Program-made: the position numbers and the translations under genes
The notes under the pieces: generated by a model
Databases searched by the model: none
Seen by the model: the letters and a program-made list of their open reading frames with translations, nothing else
What the model was told of the DNA's origin: nothing
From: Citreicoccus inhibens
GTDB taxonomy: Bacteria > Myxococcota > Myxococcia > Myxococcales > Myxococcaceae
Assembly (NCBI RefSeq): GCF_019039035.1
Contig: NZ_JAHNZT010000001.1
Location: 336,049 to 400,048 of the forward strand
Reading direction: 5' to 3'
DNA length: 64,000 nt
Part shown: positions 20,179-28,719 of the stretch, in pieces
How the letters are laid out: every line of letters begins with the position of its first letter
How positions within the stretch are numbered: the stretch's first letter is position 1

Positions 20179-21825
20179 TTAGACGGGCTGGAGATAGGAG
20201 ATCGTCACCACGCCGTTGCCGGTCCCCTGATCCGCCTGATTGTTCGGACTGCTGCCCGCGTTGTACGAGCCGCCACCACCACCACCGCCGCAGTTGCTGG
20301 ACGCGCCACCAGCGCCACCACCGCTGTAGCCACCCGCGCCGCCGGCCGCGCCAGCCGCGCCGCCACCGCCGCCATAACCACCGTTGCCATTGAGCGTGCC
20401 CGTGCCACCGCTACCGCCCGAGCTGATGGCGAGGCCACCGCCGCCACCGCCCGAGCCCGCGCCACCGGCGCCCGTCCCGCCCGACTGAGTCAGGCCGGCG
20501 CCGCCACCACCACCGCCGTGGAAGCCCGCCGCACCACCCGAGCCACCACCCGCGTTGGCGCCACCCGCCGCTCCCGGGCTGCCATTACCCGCGTTCCCCG
20601 TAGTGCTCAGCGCGGCGCCCCAGCCATTGAAGCCATTGCAGCCCGCGCCACCGCCACCGCCCGCCGCCACCATCAGCGACGACACCGTCGCAGAGCCCGT
20701 CCCGCGCCATACGAACGAACCACCACCACCACCACCGTTCGTGCCGTCCGCGCCGCGTCCACCCACCACGATGCTCAGCGCGTCACCCGGCGTCACGTTG
20801 AACGTGCCAGACAGCAGCGCTCCCGCGCCTGCGCCCGCGTTGTTGTAGGCATTGCCGCCGCGCGCCCCCACGGCCTTCACGTTCACCGCGTAGACGTTCG
20901 CGGGCACCGTGAAGCTCTGGAGCCCACCCGTGTAGTTGAACGTCTGGGTGATGGGCATCATCTGAACATAGGTGAGCACCACCACGCCGTTGCCCGTGCC
21001 CTGGTCGGCTTGATTGTTCGGACTGCTGCCCGCGTTGTACGAGCCGCCACCACCACCACCGCCGCAGTTGCTGGACGCGCCACCAGCGCCACCACCGCTG
21101 TAGCCACCCGCACCGCCGGCCGCGCCAGCCGCGCCGCCACCGCCGCCATAACCACCGTTGCCATTGAGCGTGCCCGTGCCACCGCTACCGCCCGAGCTGA
21201 TGGCGAGGCCACCGCCGCCACCGCCCGAGCCCGCGCCACCGGCGCCCGTCCCGCCCGACTGAGTCAGGCCCGCGCCGCCGCCGCCGCCGCCGTGGAAGCC
21301 CGCCGCACCACCCGAGCCACCGCCCGCGTTGGCGCCACCCGCCGCTCCCGGGCTGCCATTACCCGCGTTCCCCGTGGTGCTCAGCGCGGCGCCCCAGCCA
21401 TTGAAGCCATTGCAGCCCGCGCCACCGCCACCGCCCGCCGCCACCATCAGCGACGACACCGTCGCAGAGCCCGTCCCGCGCCATACGAACGAACCACCAC
21501 CACCACCACCGTTCGTGCCGTCCGCGCCGCGTCCACCCACCACGATGCTCAGCGCGTCACCCGGCGTCACGTTGAACGTGCCAGACAGCAGCGCTCCCGC
21601 GCCTGCGCCCGCGTTGTTGTAGGCATTGCCGCCGCGAGCGCCCACGGCCTTCACGTTCACCGCGTAGACGTTCGCGGGCACCGTGAAGCTCTGGAGCCCA
21701 CCCGTGTAGTTGAACGTCTGGGTTGTCTGCGCATGCGCGGGACCTGACAGCAATCCCGTGGTGAGCACCGCCGATACCGCGAGGAACTTCGATATTCCGA
21801 GCCGGACTGAATGCGTCTTGGACAT
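20179..21825 (-). CDS. Exported glycine-rich protein with two near-identical 258-residue repeats
   Basis: 548 residues. The signal peptide ends GPAHA|Q (about residue 32). The mature protein is two copies of one unit. Each begins QTFNYTGGLQSFTVPANVYA (a beta-sandwich-like start of the bacterial glycine-rich domain family), then runs about 170 residues of Gly-rich sequence broken by single Cys, Asn and Ala, and ends in a short beta strand (VVVLTYVQ or VVTISYLQ). Each unit has two cysteines. Start ATG 21825; the frame is open upstream to 21897 but that would spoil the signal peptide. Function is unknown; an extracellular structural or matrix role is a guess from composition. Confidence 0.75.
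   Translation of the reverse strand: MSKTHSVRLGISKFLAVSAVLTTGLLSGPAHAQTTQTFNYTGGLQSFTVPANVYAVNVKAVGARGGNAYNNAGAGAGALLSGTFNVTPGDALSIVVGGRGADGTNGGGGGGSFVWRGTGSATVSSLMVAAGGGGGAGCNGFNGWGAALSTTGNAGNGSPGAAGGANAGGGSGGAAGFHGGGGGGAGLTQSGGTGAGGAGSGGGGGGLAISSGGSGGTGTLNGNGGYGGGGGAAGAAGGAGGYSGGGAGGASSNCGGGGGGGSYNAGSSPNNQADQGTGNGVVVLTYVQMMPITQTFNYTGGLQSFTVPANVYAVNVKAVGARGGNAYNNAGAGAGALLSGTFNVTPGDALSIVVGGRGADGTNGGGGGGSFVWRGTGSATVSSLMVAAGGGGGAGCNGFNGWGAALSTTGNAGNGSPGAAGGANAGGGSGGAAGFHGGGGGGAGLTQSGGTGAGGAGSGGGGGGLAISSGGSGGTGTLNGNGGYGGGGGAAGAAGGAGGYSGGGAGGASSNCGGGGGGGSYNAGSSPNNQADQGTGNGVVTISYLQPV
20182..20949 (-). repeat. 774-bp tandem duplication, copy 2 (C-terminal half)
   Basis: Period is 774 bases; boundaries are approximate. 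It differs from copy 1 at few places, e.g. the CCACCACCACC run near 20507 is CCGCCGCCGCC in copy 1, and the last 8 codons diverge. Confidence 0.9.
20956..21723 (-). repeat. 774-bp tandem duplication, copy 1 (N-terminal half)
   Basis: Same unit as 20182-20949, shifted by 774 bases (258 codons exactly, keeping frame). Near identity at synonymous sites points to a recent duplication or ongoing gene conversion. Confidence 0.9.
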
Positions 21826-22104
21826 CGCGACCACTCCTGCCATGCGGGTTGTCGTGGCCGAGACCGGCCACCGCGCAAGCCCTGGAGCAAGAGACACGCC
21901 ACCATTTGTCCAGAAGACAACACAGACCCCGCGCCCAAGCCCTGAACCCAGGAGTCGCCCCGCTTGCGTCTCAATGGGACACAGGTGCGTCCTGCCAGGA
22001 AGCTGCCGGCGCGCGGAAGACCCAGTCCAACCCGACCCAATGCCTGACGCGCCGGGAGGAGGCGGGACCGAAACATGGCCCCGCCCCCGATGCCCCGCGG
22101 AGCG

Positions 22105-22941
22105 TCAGGAGACCACGGCCTCGGCGGTAGGCTCGATTTGAGCCTCCGTGTTGGTCCACACGAAAGGAATGCCCGGCTGACGGTAATGCGTGGCGGGGAT
22201 GTCCTTCTCGAGCTGCGCGTGCAACTCCGGGAGCTGCGACCAGTGCAGGCCATGCTTCGCATGGTGCGCGGTGTGATAGCCCAGGTTGCCTGTCAGCAGG
22301 TTGTAGCCCTTGTGCAGGATGTTGAAGGACGCCTGCGTGTGCTCGGTCGCCTCCAGGCCCGTGTGATGGAAATACGTGGCCCACACCGTGACAAACAGAG
22401 ACGCGCACATGGGCAGCAGGAACACCCAGAGCGCGTTGTACCAGTCATGCCAGAACAGCGCGCCCAGCAGCACCACCTGCAACACGGCCATGCCCGTGAA
22501 GGTGCGCAGGATGCGCGGGTGCTCCAGGCCCACCTTGAAGGCGCGCGGATACGCGACCAGCGCCGTGATGAACGAGTACTCCAGCTCACCCATCGTGGTG
22601 CCGTCCTTGCGCTTCCAGCGGGACTCGTCCTTCTCCTGGTCCAGGTAGTTGCGGTGGTGGCCCAGCACGTGGTGCAGGAACCACGCGTGGGACGTCACCC
22701 CGGTCTGAAAGGCAAACACCACCTCCAGGACCCGATTCGGCAGCGTGTGCCGGAACATCGGGACGTGCTGGTGGTGGTGGTTCCACGCGCTGATCCACCC
22801 CTTCGGAATCACCCACAGGGCGAGCCACAGGATGGGGAACCACCAGCTCCGCGACTGGAGATAGACGGTCACGTCCAACGCGAAGGCACAGAAGAACAGC
22901 AGGACAGGGATGCGGTCTCGGGGATGCCGGAACAGGGTCAT
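22105..22941 (-). CDS. Membrane fatty acid desaturase/hydroxylase
   Basis: 278 residues with about four hydrophobic segments. The three di-iron histidine clusters are NHHHQH (residues about 54-59), HHVLGHH (about 90-96) and HTAHH (about 228-232), the membrane desaturase pattern. The enzyme would insert a double bond or hydroxyl into a lipid-bound acyl chain. It overlaps the P450 gene by 4 bases and is the last gene of the lipoxygenase-P450-desaturase operon, which suggests it makes polyunsaturated acyl substrate for the lipoxygenase. Regiospecificity cannot be read from the sequence; a carotenoid or sterol hydroxylase is less likely. Confidence 0.8.
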   Translation of the reverse strand: MTLFRHPRDRIPVLLFFCAFALDVTVYLQSRSWWFPILWLALWVIPKGWISAWNHHHQHVPMFRHTLPNRVLEVVFAFQTGVTSHAWFLHHVLGHHRNYLDQEKDESRWKRKDGTTMGELEYSFITALVAYPRAFKVGLEHPRILRTFTGMAVLQVVLLGALFWHDWYNALWVFLLPMCASLFVTVWATYFHHTGLEATEHTQASFNILHKGYNLLTGNLGYHTAHHAKHGLHWSQLPELHAQLEKDIPATHYRQPGIPFVWTNTEAQIEPTAEAVVS

Positions 22942-24362
22942 GCGGATTCCACTGCGGGGGTGTCGCCAGGGGGTTGGAGGGACTGCGGGGGCCGCGCCTG
23001 CAGTCTACCGATGACGCCCTTGGGAAGAACGACCCCGAAGAAGAATCCCTCCTCGAAGGGCGCCGTGGAGTCCACTTGCACCCTCGCCCGCGCCGCGATG
23101 GTCGCCAGCGCCGTCTGGAGATACACCACGGCGAAGGCCCCTCCCACGCATGCGCGAGGACCCCGCCCGAAGGGGAAGAAGTAGCCGCTCCCCAGCGGGT
23201 CCCTCGCCACGCCGCCGCCGAGCCACCGCTCGGGGACGAACTCCTCGGCGCGGACCCAATGCGTCGGGTCTCGGTGCAGGTGCTGGTTGGAGATCATGAT
23301 CATCGCGCCCGCCGGCAGCGTCACGCCCGCCAGCTTCGCGTCCGCCGCGGGCGTGCGCGTGAAGACCCGGACCGCGGGCAACAGGCGCATGGACTCGTAC
23401 GCCACCGCCTCCGCCCAGGGCGCCTGCCGGAGCGACTCGAAGGTCCACGGGCCCTCCCCCAGTGCGGCGGCTTCGGCCGCGAGGCGAGCCTCCGCGTCAG
23501 GGAACCTCTGGAGCTGGTGGAACGCGCCCACCAGGGTCGTGCTCGAGGAGAACACGCCCCCGTAGAAGAACGTCCCCAAGAGGTGCGCCAGCCGCTGCTC
23601 GGGCAGGTCCGGCATCTGGCGCAGCGTCCACGACAACAGGTCCACCCCGTGGGGGTTGGGCTTCGCCCGCGCGGCGCGGACCTTCTGCGCGAACAGGCCA
23701 TAGAACCGCTCACGCGCCCGCTCGAAGCCCTTGGGCAGGGAGACGAACCGCAAGGGCAGCTTCGCCTGGATGCGCGCGTCCGCCCCCTTCGCCATCAACA
23801 TGAAGTCGTCATAGGCCGAGTCGGGCAGCGCCTCGCCCACCACGACGGTCGCGAAGGTGTCGAACGTCAGTCGCCGCAGCACGGGCGTCAGGTCCACGGG
23901 GCCCGCCGCGAACAGGTGCTCCACGGCCTGCGCGACCGTGGCCTGCATGGGCCCCACCTGCGCCGCCAGCCACTCGGGAGACCACGGCTGCTCCAGCGGG
24001 TCGCCCCGGCGCTTCTCGGCCCAGTCCTCGCTCTGCTTCGCGATGAACACCGTGTCGTCCGTCACGGTCGGGCGGACCTGATCGCTGATGGCGCCCTTCT
24101 CGAACTCCAGCCGGCGCGTCTCCATCACCTCTTCGATGAGCGAGGGGTCGTTGAGCACCACGCCTGGGCTGGCGCCCATCCAGATGAGCGTGACGCCGCC
24201 ATACTCCCGGCCGTAGCGCGCGCAGACATCCCAAGGCGTGGCGCCGAGGAAATCCCCCAGCGTGCCGAGCACACCGGGCGCGGGGCCGGGCAACGAAGCG
24301 AAGGCCTTGCGACGAGCGCCGAAGAACAGGTTGAACACGCCACGAGAGAACAGGTTCGGCAA
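22938..24362 (-). CDS. Cytochrome P450 with atypical I-helix
   Basis: 474 residues. Heme loop FFPFGRGPRACVGG has the thiolate Cys405. The ExxR motif is ESMR in the K-helix and PERW is in the meander, so the fold is complete. In the I-helix, where monooxygenases have (A/G)Gx(D/E)T(T/S), this protein has GGVFSSS at residues 268-274: the acid is Phe and the Thr is Ser. Loss of this pair is typical of P450s that rearrange peroxides instead of activating O2 (CYP74, CYP5, CYP8). It lies 17 bases after a lipoxygenase gene and overlaps the desaturase gene. I infer a fatty acid hydroperoxide-using enzyme (allene oxide synthase, lyase or epoxyalcohol synthase type). No redox partner gene is nearby. Confidence 0.85.
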   Translation of the reverse strand: MPNLFSRGVFNLFFGARRKAFASLPGPAPGVLGTLGDFLGATPWDVCARYGREYGGVTLIWMGASPGVVLNDPSLIEEVMETRRLEFEKGAISDQVRPTVTDDTVFIAKQSEDWAEKRRGDPLEQPWSPEWLAAQVGPMQATVAQAVEHLFAAGPVDLTPVLRRLTFDTFATVVVGEALPDSAYDDFMLMAKGADARIQAKLPLRFVSLPKGFERARERFYGLFAQKVRAARAKPNPHGVDLLSWTLRQMPDLPEQRLAHLLGTFFYGGVFSSSTTLVGAFHQLQRFPDAEARLAAEAAALGEGPWTFESLRQAPWAEAVAYESMRLLPAVRVFTRTPAADAKLAGVTLPAGAMIMISNQHLHRDPTHWVRAEEFVPERWLGGGVARDPLGSGYFFPFGRGPRACVGGAFAVVYLQTALATIAARARVQVDSTAPFEEGFFFGVVLPKGVIGRLQARPPQSLQPPGDTPAVESA

Positions 24363-24379
24363 GGCGCCTCCAGGGCGTC

Positions 24380-26407
24380 TCAGACGGTGATGCCGCAGGG
24401 AATCCGGTCGGGTTGCAGGACGGTGTACGGCACGTCGCGCTGGGCGTTGCGCGCCTTCAACGACTCGAGCTGAGCGGCCAGACGCGCATGGAAGCGCTCG
24501 CGAATGGCGTGCAGCGCGGGCTCGTGGAAGTACTCCTCGTGCCAGCCCCCGGTGTGGAGCAGGTACTCCTCGTCATCCCCGAAGCTGGAGAGCGCCCGGC
24601 CAATGGCCACCTGCCACAGCGTCTGGGATTTGGTCGGAATCATCGCGGCGATGTCCGCCGGCCCCAGCTTCCCCTTCTCGCGAGGCGGCGCGCGGCGCAG
24701 GCACAGCGGAGCGTTGGGCACGAAGGCGTAGTGCTCGTACTGGAGATAGTTCACCGCGGCGTGCTGCACGCTCACCGAGAACAGGACGGTGGTGAGAATC
24801 TCCACCAGGTCGTCCACGCGGCGCAGCGTTACACAGGGCAACTTGTCCACGGGGAGGCCATGCGTGGTGAGGTCCTCCCACCAGTGCTGCATCTCCCCAT
24901 CAGCCACGAGGTCCGCGTCGGTCGCGTAGAAGTGCCGCAGGACTCCGCCCACGTACTCCTCCAGCGCATCCCACAGGGGGAGCGCCTCGTCGCGATAGGG
25001 ATAGTCCGGCAGCACCGAGGGGTCCAACACCCCGCGCCGGGCCAGGTCGCGTCGCGGCTGGTTGTCCCGCAGGGTCCAGCGCGCGAAGCCCTTCTTGCCC
25101 AACTGGAGGTGTCCCTTGTCCGGGCCGCCCGTGGCGATGAAGTCGTCGAACACCGCGCCCTCGGCCAGCAGGCCCTTGCGCGCGCCGTCGTTGATGGCGA
25201 GCGTGTAGCGGAAGTGCCGACGCAACAATTTGTAGACGGGATGCGGGTCCGGCAGGTTGCGCATCGTCGCCAGGACGAAGGGCTCGGCGATGAAGTGGGT
25301 CCGCAGCGCGTGCGACACCATCTGGTGCGTGTTGCCCTCGCTGCATCGCACGTAGATTTTCGCGGCCAGCCAGTCGTACTCCCCATCGTTCGGGGTGAAG
25401 ACCGGGTCCTGTGCCGCGTCGCGCCCCAACTGGATGGCGAGGGGCCGCAATCGCTGGCTGTCGTCCAAGAACAACAGACACCGAGCAGCAGGCGCCCAGC
25501 GGCGCTCCTCCTCGCCCCCCTTCCCCACCTTCCGGAACATCGGAATGTCCTCGAGGATCTCGAAGTCGATCAAGAAGACGCGCTGGGCCTCGAACGCACC
25601 CGCCAGCGTCAGCCCCGGGGACAAGAGCCCTCGGAGGTCCGCGTCCGTCAGCGGCATCCCCTCGGGCAACGCACGCACGAGCGTGACATGGATGGGATTG
25701 ATGCCCTGGACGGCCTGCCGCGCGAACTCGTGGTCGTCCTTCCAGCGGTGCGACAGCTGAGGCAATTCGATTCCCTTGAAGAAATCGAAGATGTCCACCA
25801 GCCCATTCCACGCGCTCGCCAGCATGGGCAGATGCAACTGGATGGCCGCCAGCGTCTTGGCGATGACCACCTCGTAGCTGCCATCACGCAGGCCCCGGTA
25901 GAGCTCATCCTTCGGCAGCGGCCTCGCCTCGCCGAGGTCGAGCGCGCCGGGCAACCCCTGCGTGGCCTCGGGCGAACGCCAGCCATACATCCGGTGCCGG
26001 ACCTGGAGCTGCTCCAACCGCGCGGACGCCTCGCGCTCGCTGCGCGCGTGCTGCGGGAGCCTCGCCGTTCCCTCCAGCACCTCCGCGTGGGTGCCGCTGA
26101 GAATCCAGCGGAAGAAGGGGAAGTGCCATCGCCGCTCCCCCGAGGACACCTGGACCGTGTCGAGCAGCCAGTCTCCCGCCACGCCTCCCGAGTTGCTCAA
26201 CCGCAGCAGCAGCAACTCCCCCACGTCACGGTCCGAGACCGAATAGACCTCCTCCGAACCCGCCTCGAAGTCATTGTGAAAGCGCCGGTCCAGGACGTGC
26301 GACGCGCTCTCTCCCCCTGTCCCCACCAGGACCACGCAGATGGTCCCGTCCGTCCCCGCCCCCCACCGTGTGCTCGTCCGAATCGTGAGCTTGTACTCGA
26401 CAGTCAT
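24380..26407 (-). CDS. Lipoxygenase (PLAT plus catalytic domain)
   Basis: 675 residues. The N-terminal PLAT/C2-like domain (about 1-115) is followed by the helical catalytic domain. Iron ligands visible are His361 and His366 in HQMVSH, His549 and Asn553 in QHAAVN, and the C-terminal carboxylate. The last residue is Val675 (GITV), not the near-universal Ile. Ala409 in INDGARKG sits at the Coffa-Brash position, where Ala goes with S- and Gly with R-hydroperoxides, so an S product is predicted. It has no signal peptide, unlike secreted Pseudomonas LoxA. Start ATG 26407; the longer frame has no matching domain. First gene of the three-gene operon. It dioxygenates polyunsaturated fatty acids. Confidence 0.92.
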   Translation of the reverse strand: MTVEYKLTIRTSTRWGAGTDGTICVVLVGTGGESASHVLDRRFHNDFEAGSEEVYSVSDRDVGELLLLRLSNSGGVAGDWLLDTVQVSSGERRWHFPFFRWILSGTHAEVLEGTARLPQHARSEREASARLEQLQVRHRMYGWRSPEATQGLPGALDLGEARPLPKDELYRGLRDGSYEVVIAKTLAAIQLHLPMLASAWNGLVDIFDFFKGIELPQLSHRWKDDHEFARQAVQGINPIHVTLVRALPEGMPLTDADLRGLLSPGLTLAGAFEAQRVFLIDFEILEDIPMFRKVGKGGEEERRWAPAARCLLFLDDSQRLRPLAIQLGRDAAQDPVFTPNDGEYDWLAAKIYVRCSEGNTHQMVSHALRTHFIAEPFVLATMRNLPDPHPVYKLLRRHFRYTLAINDGARKGLLAEGAVFDDFIATGGPDKGHLQLGKKGFARWTLRDNQPRRDLARRGVLDPSVLPDYPYRDEALPLWDALEEYVGGVLRHFYATDADLVADGEMQHWWEDLTTHGLPVDKLPCVTLRRVDDLVEILTTVLFSVSVQHAAVNYLQYEHYAFVPNAPLCLRRAPPREKGKLGPADIAAMIPTKSQTLWQVAIGRALSSFGDDEEYLLHTGGWHEEYFHEPALHAIRERFHARLAAQLESLKARNAQRDVPYTVLQPDRIPCGITV

Positions 26408-26675: not shown

Positions 26676-27683
26676 GTGAAGCGAAGCTTGTCTGGATTGG
26701 TCGTCGCCCTCGCGCTCACCGCCTGCAAGGAAGAGCCTCGCGGGAAGATGGAGCCGATTGCCCATCCCCCCACGCCCGCGGGCGCCACGGCCGCTCCCGC
26801 GGCGAAGCCCGCAGCAGCGGAGGTCGTCCCCGCCGAGGGCGCCGTGCTGCTGCGCTGGAAGCTGGCCAAGGGCGAGCCCCGAGCCTTCCGCCTGTCGTTC
26901 ACGCCGGAGGCCGCCGCCCCCGCCTCCGAGCCCGCCGCGCCGCCCTCGCGCGCCGACAAGAAGAAGGGCCGCGACCCCAAGGCCAAGGCCGAGGCCCCCG
27001 AGCCCGCGCCGCTGATGACGCCCACCGAGCTGACCTATCTGCTGGAGCGCACGAGCAGCGGAGACGCGCTGCTGCGCATCACGCCCGCGAGCGGCGCGCC
27101 GGATGAGGCCAGCCTGAGCGACCGCGGCTTCGTGCTGGAGGGGCTCCAGGGCGCCACGCGCAACACCGCGACGCTGCTGCTGGAGCTGCCGCGCGACGCG
27201 GTCCGCGTGGGCGACACGTGGTCGCTGGCCACCGAGCTGGTGGTCCCCGACGTCTTCGGCCGCGACTTCCACCGCAGCGCGGGCGAGCGCCACAACCGCG
27301 TGAAGCTGACCGCGCTGACGCCCGCGGAGAACGGCGAGCAGGTGGCCGTCATCGAGTACGACCTGGGCGAGCAGCTCTCCGGCATCGTCCCGCCCGGGTA
27401 CAAGCCCCCCGACGCACGCCCCGGCTCCGACGAGGGCAAGAAGACCGCGGGCTCACAGGACGTGGCGGTGGACGTGAAGGTCACCGCCCGTGGCGAGTTC
27501 CTGGTGAAGGCGGGGCACTGGCGCACGTGGGAGGGCACCTTCGCCACCGTGACGAAGGGCCCCGCGCGCGCCGCCGCGCAGCTCCCGGCGGGCACGCAGA
27601 AGGTGCGCCTCACCGCGCTGGACGCCGCGCCGGCCGCTCCTGCTACCCCGCCGCCAGCGGCGGCTCAACCGGCCGCGCCGTAG
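26676..27683 (+). CDS. Lipoprotein of unknown function
   Basis: 335 residues. MKRSLSGLVVALALTAC is a lipoprotein signal with lipobox LTAC (Cys17). The region to about residue 110 is Pro/Ala/Lys-rich and probably disordered; the rest is a soluble beta-rich domain, including ELPRDAVRVGDTWSLATELV, a motif seen in many myxobacterial DUF6263-like lipoproteins. It ends in a Pro/Ala tail. Start GTG 26676 is chosen for the signal peptide. Its last 41 bases overlap the 3' end of the convergent hemH. No function can be assigned. Confidence 0.7.
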   Translation: MKRSLSGLVVALALTACKEEPRGKMEPIAHPPTPAGATAAPAAKPAAAEVVPAEGAVLLRWKLAKGEPRAFRLSFTPEAAAPASEPAAPPSRADKKKGRDPKAKAEAPEPAPLMTPTELTYLLERTSSGDALLRITPASGAPDEASLSDRGFVLEGLQGATRNTATLLLELPRDAVRVGDTWSLATELVVPDVFGRDFHRSAGERHNRVKLTALTPAENGEQVAVIEYDLGEQLSGIVPPGYKPPDARPGSDEGKKTAGSQDVAVDVKVTARGEFLVKAGHWRTWEGTFATVTKGPARAAAQLPAGTQKVRLTALDAAPAAPATPPPAAAQPAAP

Positions 27684-28719
27684 CGCCGTCCGACTCACGC
27701 ACCAGTTGCACCACCGCGTCCACCCAGGCGGGGTGGGCGTTGAGGGAGGGGACGAGCGTCAGCGACTCTCCTCCCGCCGCGACGAACTGCTCGCGCGCGC
27801 GCAGGCCCACTTCCTCCAGCGTCTCCAGGCAGTCCGCCACGAACGCCGGGCACATCACCGCGAGCCGCTTCACGCCGCGCCCGGCCAGCTCTGGCAGCAC
27901 CTCGTCCGTGTAGGGCTTCACCCACGGCGTCCGCCCCAGCCGCGACTGGAACGACACGGTGTAGCCCTCCGGCTTCAGCCCCAGCCGCTCGGCCAACATG
28001 CGCGCCGTCGCGTAGCACTGCGCGCGGTAGCAGTGGCGGTTCACGTCGGTGAGCGTGTCGCAGCACCCCGACGAAGCCAGGCAGTGGCTCCCGGAGGGAT
28101 CGCTCTTGCGCATGTGCCGCTCGGGCAGCCCGTGGAAGCTGAACAGCACATGGTCCGCGCGGGCCTCGGAGATGACCGGCCGCGCCACCGTGGCGAACGC
28201 ATCGAGGAAGCCCGGCGCGTCGTAGAACGCGGGCACCGCGCGCACGTTGGGGACGTCCCAGCCCTCGGTCATCACCTCGTAGAGGCGCGCCAGCGAGGAC
28301 GAAGACGACGACGTGGCCTCCTGCGGGTACAGCGGCAGCACCGTGAAGTCCGTCACCCCGCGCTCGCGCAGCGCCGCCACCGCGTCCGGCAGCGAGGGAT
28401 TGCCATAGCGCATGGCGAGCGCCACCTCGTACTCGCCCTTCAGCTGCTCGGCCACCGCGGCGGTCAGCGCCTTGCTGTGCACGAGCAGCGGCGAGCCCTC
28501 GGGCATCCACACCTTGCGATAGGCCTCCGCGCTCCTGGCGGGGCGGAACGGCAGGATGAAGAGATTGAGGAGCAACCAGCGTCCCACCGGGTGGATGTCC
28601 ACCACGCGCGGGTCGCTCAAGAACTCGCGCAGGTAGCGCCGCACCGGCCCGGACTCGGGCGCGTCAGGCGTCCCCAGGTTGATGAGCAGGAGGCCCCGCT
28701 TCGCGCTTGGCATGGCCAT
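27643..28719 (-). CDS. hemH: Ferrochelatase with internal cysteine cluster
   Basis: 358 residues. It inserts Fe2+ into protoporphyrin IX (or coproporphyrin III) in heme synthesis. The N-terminus is LLLINLGTPDAP, the active-site His is in LFSFHGLPERH, and the Glu-bearing segment CLETLEEVG is present. Cys213, Cys219, Cys220, Cys230 and Cys235 lie within 23 residues. This matches the internal [2Fe-2S] class described for Myxococcus and Bdellovibrio ferrochelatases, as opposed to the C-terminal cysteines of the animal enzyme. It is 12 bases downstream of apaG and probably in one operon. The C-terminal Pro/Ala tail codes antisense to the neighbouring lipoprotein tail. Confidence 0.95.
   Translation of the reverse strand: MAMPSAKRGLLLINLGTPDAPESGPVRRYLREFLSDPRVVDIHPVGRWLLLNLFILPFRPARSAEAYRKVWMPEGSPLLVHSKALTAAVAEQLKGEYEVALAMRYGNPSLPDAVAALRERGVTDFTVLPLYPQEATSSSSSSLARLYEVMTEGWDVPNVRAVPAFYDAPGFLDAFATVARPVISEARADHVLFSFHGLPERHMRKSDPSGSHCLASSGCCDTLTDVNRHCYRAQCYATARMLAERLGLKPEGYTVSFQSRLGRTPWVKPYTDEVLPELAGRGVKRLAVMCPAFVADCLETLEEVGLRAREQFVAAGGESLTLVPSLNAHPAWVDAVVQLVRESDGATARPVEPPLAAG

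Follow-up and report, generated by a model that had tools for sequence, protein, structure and literature searches.

Oxylipin cascades that lead from a lipoxygenase (LOX) to a cytochrome P450 are a characteristic trait of plants and animals. Among bacteria, Myxococcus xanthus fed with arachidonate forms HETEs, hepoxilins and unresolved products, and its lipoxygenases MXAN_1744 and MXAN_1745 have been reported as an 11-LOX and a 12-LOX, respectively (PMC5760719). That work on hepoxilins and trioxilins covered LOX, EH and COX; candidate thromboxane synthases of M. xanthus proved inactive when tested, and the LOXs alone gave hepoxilins in E. coli (PMC5760719). The enzyme MF-LOX1 of Myxococcus fulvus is a 12S-lipoxygenase that prefers C20–C22 polyunsaturated fatty acids (PUFA) and yields 95–97% S products (PMC6612559). 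A bacterial oxylipin pathway, such as the original prediction proposed for the locus described here, is thus not without precedent as such: both the hepoxilins of M. xanthus and an oleate oxylipin operon of Pseudomonas aeruginosa were already known and the LOX1 relatives of M. xanthus and M. fulvus are characterised.

The locus belongs to a stretch of 64,000 nucleotides of the Citreicoccus inhibens genome, referred to below as the window. Genes for a lipoxygenase (LOX1), a cytochrome P450 and a desaturase follow each other on the minus strand; the spacing is 17 bases between LOX1 and P450 and −4 bases between P450 and desaturase. The open reading frames were recovered exactly where they had first been placed (Table 1). 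All three Pfam matches lie well over the cut-offs. The start codon of the P450, here TTG, appears as ATG, GTG or TTG at the same residue in the orthologues.

Table 1. Features of the LOX1 locus and other genes recorded in the window
Feature	Position in window	Strand	Description
LOX1 lipoxygenase	24380-26407	−	675 aa; Pfam PLAT + Lipoxygenase (PF00305), E 4.8e-74
Cytochrome P450	22938-24362	−	474 aa, TTG start; PF00067, 1.3e-46
P450 motifs			E323xxR326; Cys405 loop FFPFGRGPRACVG; I-helix FYGGVFSSS
Desaturase	22105-22941	−	278 aa; PF00487 FA_desaturase, 7.2e-28; accessory, outside the conserved core
Glycine-rich ORF	20179-21897	−	Two near-identical halves of ~270 residues; immediately follows the operon downstream
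Ferrochelatase (hemH)	27643-28719	−	Slightly upstream of LOX1
Gene between hemH and LOX1		opposite	No Pfam match
Further P450	56947-58221	+	Canonical, I-helix AGHETT

LOX1 combines a PLAT domain with a catalytic LOX domain, both over the Pfam cut-offs, and presents a complete set of iron ligands of the His-His/His-Asn type (H361, H366, H549 and N553) together with the carboxylate of the C-terminal V675, a position where Ile or Val is expected. The protein is of the animal/coral type, its best solved relative being coral 8R-LOX (E 3e-111), and its Coffa site is occupied by A409, the Ala of S-type enzymes, aligned with the Gly of the coral protein. In length and in all the specificity landmarks checked, LOX1 agrees with MF-LOX1 at an offset of one residue (G358/A409/F423-I424/I602 against G359/A410/F424-I425/I603; landmarks from PMC6612559). 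The Coffa Ala is nevertheless of little predictive value, because the A410G mutation left the chirality of MF-LOX1 unchanged (PMC6612559), and the S prediction for LOX1 therefore rests on kinship. With A409 in place and so strongly S-specific a relative, the S-hydroperoxide foreseen by the original prediction is likely to be the LOX1 product. The M. fulvus work covered the LOX alone, and the likeness of LOX1 to that enzyme is one of length and landmarks. Published regiospecificities of LOX1 relatives disagree, since MXAN_1744 is described as an 11-LOX, the M. fulvus enzyme as 12S and an M. xanthus relative, reportedly, as a linoleate-preferring acidic LOX.

LOX1 and the P450 are strictly inherited together within the family. 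In our survey of 96 Myxococcaceae genomes, LOX1 occurs in 46, the P450 in 45 and a second, divergent lipoxygenase (LOX2) in 44. LOX1 and P450 were found together in 45 of the 46 genomes, a single LOX1 genome being without the P450, and in all 45 P450-bearing genomes the P450 is the gene immediately 3′ of the orthologous LOX1 and runs in the same direction, an adjacency that exceeds chance. LOX2 is located at most 4 kb from LOX1 in 40 of the 44 genomes that carry it, and the pair, mostly with LOX2 nearby, is kept in named species of Myxococcus (including M. xanthus AM003), Corallococcus, Pyxidicoccus and Archangium. Of the synteny that had been proposed for comparison across myxobacterial genomes, this pair is what was kept throughout, whereas the complete LOX1–P450–desaturase order occurs in only 23 of the 45 P450-bearing genomes. 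In pairwise comparisons, LOX1 identity rises and falls with P450 identity (r = 0.92, to which shared ancestry contributes), and from their co-inheritance we consider it very probable that the two enzymes are functionally coupled.

The module also extends beyond the family. Sorangium cellulosum So ce26, which belongs to another order, contains LOX1, P450 and LOX2 with 65–76% identity to the C. inhibens copies, and its copies are as close to those of Archangium as many Myxococcaceae copies are among themselves. This closeness suggests that the three genes may have moved between myxobacterial orders as one unit. LOX2 of C. inhibens itself (685 aa) lies, unlike that of most relatives, on another contig (C31:153603-153947; L002, L144:8653-10710), beside a gene that by eye resembles a geosmin-type terpene synthase. 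Corallococcus sp. CA053C contains a second copy of the pair (L086:8001-10213) in which the LOX is reduced to its C-terminal third and is followed by a P450 with its first residues in another frame.

The P450 matches PF00067 with its ExxR motif and FxxGxRxCxG Cys loop, and its fold is supported by an AlphaFold2 model and VIA-align. Its I-helix departs from the usual pattern at the oxygen-activation pair, with F271 in place of the acid and S272 in place of Thr. The orthologues share the motif GG[V/A/T]FS, the Phe-Ser being invariant in the 22 aligned sequences and in 31/31 loci of a first set, and a solitary second P450 copy in one genome (61% identity, with no LOX alongside) reads SGVFS. The classical monooxygenase pair [AG]Gx[DE]T was thus found neither in the aligned orthologues nor in this orphan copy, while [AG]Gx[DE][TS][TS] is carried by 28/28 control P450s from this and related genomes. 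The acid is also missing (FGGMTSI) from a paralogue clade of 35% identity that, in two genomes of a single genus, is found some 5 kb from another LOX. None of the curated P450-specific families of NCBIfam gave a model at cut-off. Membership of CYP74 was rejected, as the protein has neither the I-helix Asn nor the nine-residue insert, its heme loop being the canonical FFPFGRGPRAC (defining features from PMC8124189, PMC10813956).

Thromboxane synthase and several fungal allene oxide synthases are self-sufficient P450s that depart from the usual residues of the distal heme site, including the Thr, and a distal Asn as in CYP74/CYP8A1 is reported not to be required (PMC13049297); such an Asn is absent here. 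Taken with the loss of the motif, these parallels point to hydroperoxide chemistry, and an O2-independent conversion of the hydroperoxide is, by a modest preference, the likeliest mechanism of this P450. The LOX1 hydroperoxide would serve the enzyme both as substrate and as source of oxygen: the ferric heme would split the O–O bond with no need of O2 or a redox partner, and a radical rearrangement would lead to an epoxyalcohol (hepoxilin-type) or an allene-oxide-type product. The lost acid/alcohol pair is what a hydroperoxide-using P450, as originally envisaged, would be expected to show; the CYP74 type is not supported.

A conventional or atypical monooxygenase, dependent on O2 and ferredoxin, that hydroxylates the LOX product (a hydroxy fatty acid) or a related lipid and tolerates the Phe-Ser variant, is unlikely, if the weightiest of the other explanations. 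The ExxR motif and the Cys loop are canonical, Ser272 retains the hydroxyl, and the closest solved structures are monooxygenases, although the best rows were near-ties for a model of moderate confidence (pLDDT 69); the same search with this model brought no hydroperoxide-isomerase P450 to the fore. Altered acid/alcohol pairs are compatible with function in some P450 monooxygenases, and since Ser may replace Thr, loss of the acid is suggestive only. Against a monooxygenase stands the disappearance of the acid from every orthologue, when all the controls keep it. Furthermore, no ferredoxin or reductase gene was found in a scan of seven window genes around the operon, though redox partners could be encoded elsewhere. 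The product of a hydroperoxide-converting P450 may be an epoxyalcohol, an allene oxide or something else: the LOXs of M. xanthus yield hepoxilins on their own, which makes a P450 dispensable for that step, and the P450 may well make something other than a hepoxilin.

The third gene behaves differently. The desaturase shows the His boxes HHHQH, HHVLGHH and HTAHH and matches PF00487 over the cut-off, and no close paralogue of it was found within the C. inhibens genome. Desaturases of M. xanthus are said to have been studied by Ring et al. in 2009. Orthologues of at least 70% identity occur in 52 genomes of the Myxococcaceae set, six of which have no LOX1, and adjoin the P450 in 23; in Corallococcus and others the gene stands alone with no consistent neighbours, and it is unlinked in about half of the LOX1-bearing genomes. 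Dedication to the LOX, or co-inheritance with it, as a desaturase producing PUFA for the pathway should display, was not observed. Given the six LOX1-less genomes and the frequent lack of linkage, the desaturase is more likely a general enzyme than a dedicated step, and its assignment to the pathway as a dedicated part is not supported. A line of three dedicated enzymes, with the desaturase supplying the PUFA, the LOX converting it to a hydroperoxide and the P450 rearranging the latter, is accordingly the most doubtful of the explanations considered, the more so as one desaturation step yields a substrate for the LOX only where a double bond in a suitable position is already there. Several observations do speak for such a line. 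The tight three-gene operon exists in 23 genomes, and several genomes of one genus (g19) that have neither LOX1 nor P450 also have no close desaturase orthologue, a pattern that fits loss of the entire operon there. In an uncultured proteobacterium MAG (L085:80-5056), moreover, a P450, a PF00487 desaturase and a LOX1-like gene (52%) stand in a row on one strand; the P450 there is canonical, and the trio is a second case, separately and independently assembled, of these three enzyme classes.

The origin of the PUFA bears on the same question. No PfaA-type PUFA synthase was found over the cut-off in the C. inhibens genome, TIGR02813 giving only sub-threshold PKS matches, and in the assays of the known LOX1 relatives the PUFA was supplied from outside (PMC5760719, PMC6612559). 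The idea of a complete, self-contained pathway in C. inhibens is not supported by these data. Both facts, together with the predatory lifestyle, could instead favour a detoxification pair with no signalling role, in which PUFA taken from prey would be oxidised by the LOX and the resulting hydroperoxides removed by the P450. This is improbable, to a degree close to that of the dedicated three-enzyme line: that two unlike LOXs are so strictly conserved alongside the P450 speaks more for a defined product than for detoxification in general. On balance we lean, with moderate confidence, towards a two-gene oxylipin module of LOX1 and a hydroperoxide-rearranging P450, usually with the divergent LOX2 alongside. 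LOX1 would dioxygenate a C20/C22, possibly C18, PUFA, giving an S-hydroperoxide close to n-9. A PUFA synthase is the less likely source of this PUFA, which would more probably be taken up from prey or the surroundings. The desaturase would be a more general lipid desaturase, found in the operon only in some lineages, where its co-transcription may tie acyl unsaturation to oxylipin output.

Compared with the M. xanthus system, the arrangement is the same, since strain AM003 has LOX2–LOX1–P450–desaturase, from which gene order we infer that the P450 and the desaturase correspond to MXAN_1743 and MXAN_1742; the P450 candidates tested in that species were others, MXAN_0683 and MXAN_2304 (PMC5760719). 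Our search of a mostly openly accessible literature found no paper on the LOX1-linked myxobacterial P450. As M. xanthus is genetically tractable and carries the pair, the purpose of the myxobacterial LOXs could be tested by single-gene deletion. With the CYP74 clan (AOS, HPL, DES, EAS) the P450 would share the type of reaction, a hydroperoxide entering and no O2 being consumed, but it has neither the I-helix Asn nor the nine-residue insert before the heme Cys (PMC8124189, PMC10813956), and it would have acquired this chemistry separately. The fungal dioxygenase-P450 fusions and CYP5A1/CYP8A1 likewise couple a dioxygenase to a P450 with non-classical oxygen-activation residues (PMC13049297), whereas the myxobacterial proteins are separate, encoded in an operon, and a non-heme LOX takes the place of a dioxygenase of the peroxidase-COX type. 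That this P450 represents a bacterial family separate from CYP74, which independently evolved into a self-sufficient hydroperoxide-rearranging enzyme, bound by operon to a LOX and giving myxobacterial epoxyalcohol or allene-oxide oxylipins, seems to us an evenly balanced proposition. The oleate-diol synthase operon PA2077-PA2078 of P. aeruginosa is also a bacterial two-step oxylipin operon, but its enzymes are di-heme proteins and not a LOX and a P450 (PMC4496055, PMC6377657). If our reading is true, the LOX–P450 pair present in tens of myxobacterial species would represent a bacterial cascade built with a different P450.
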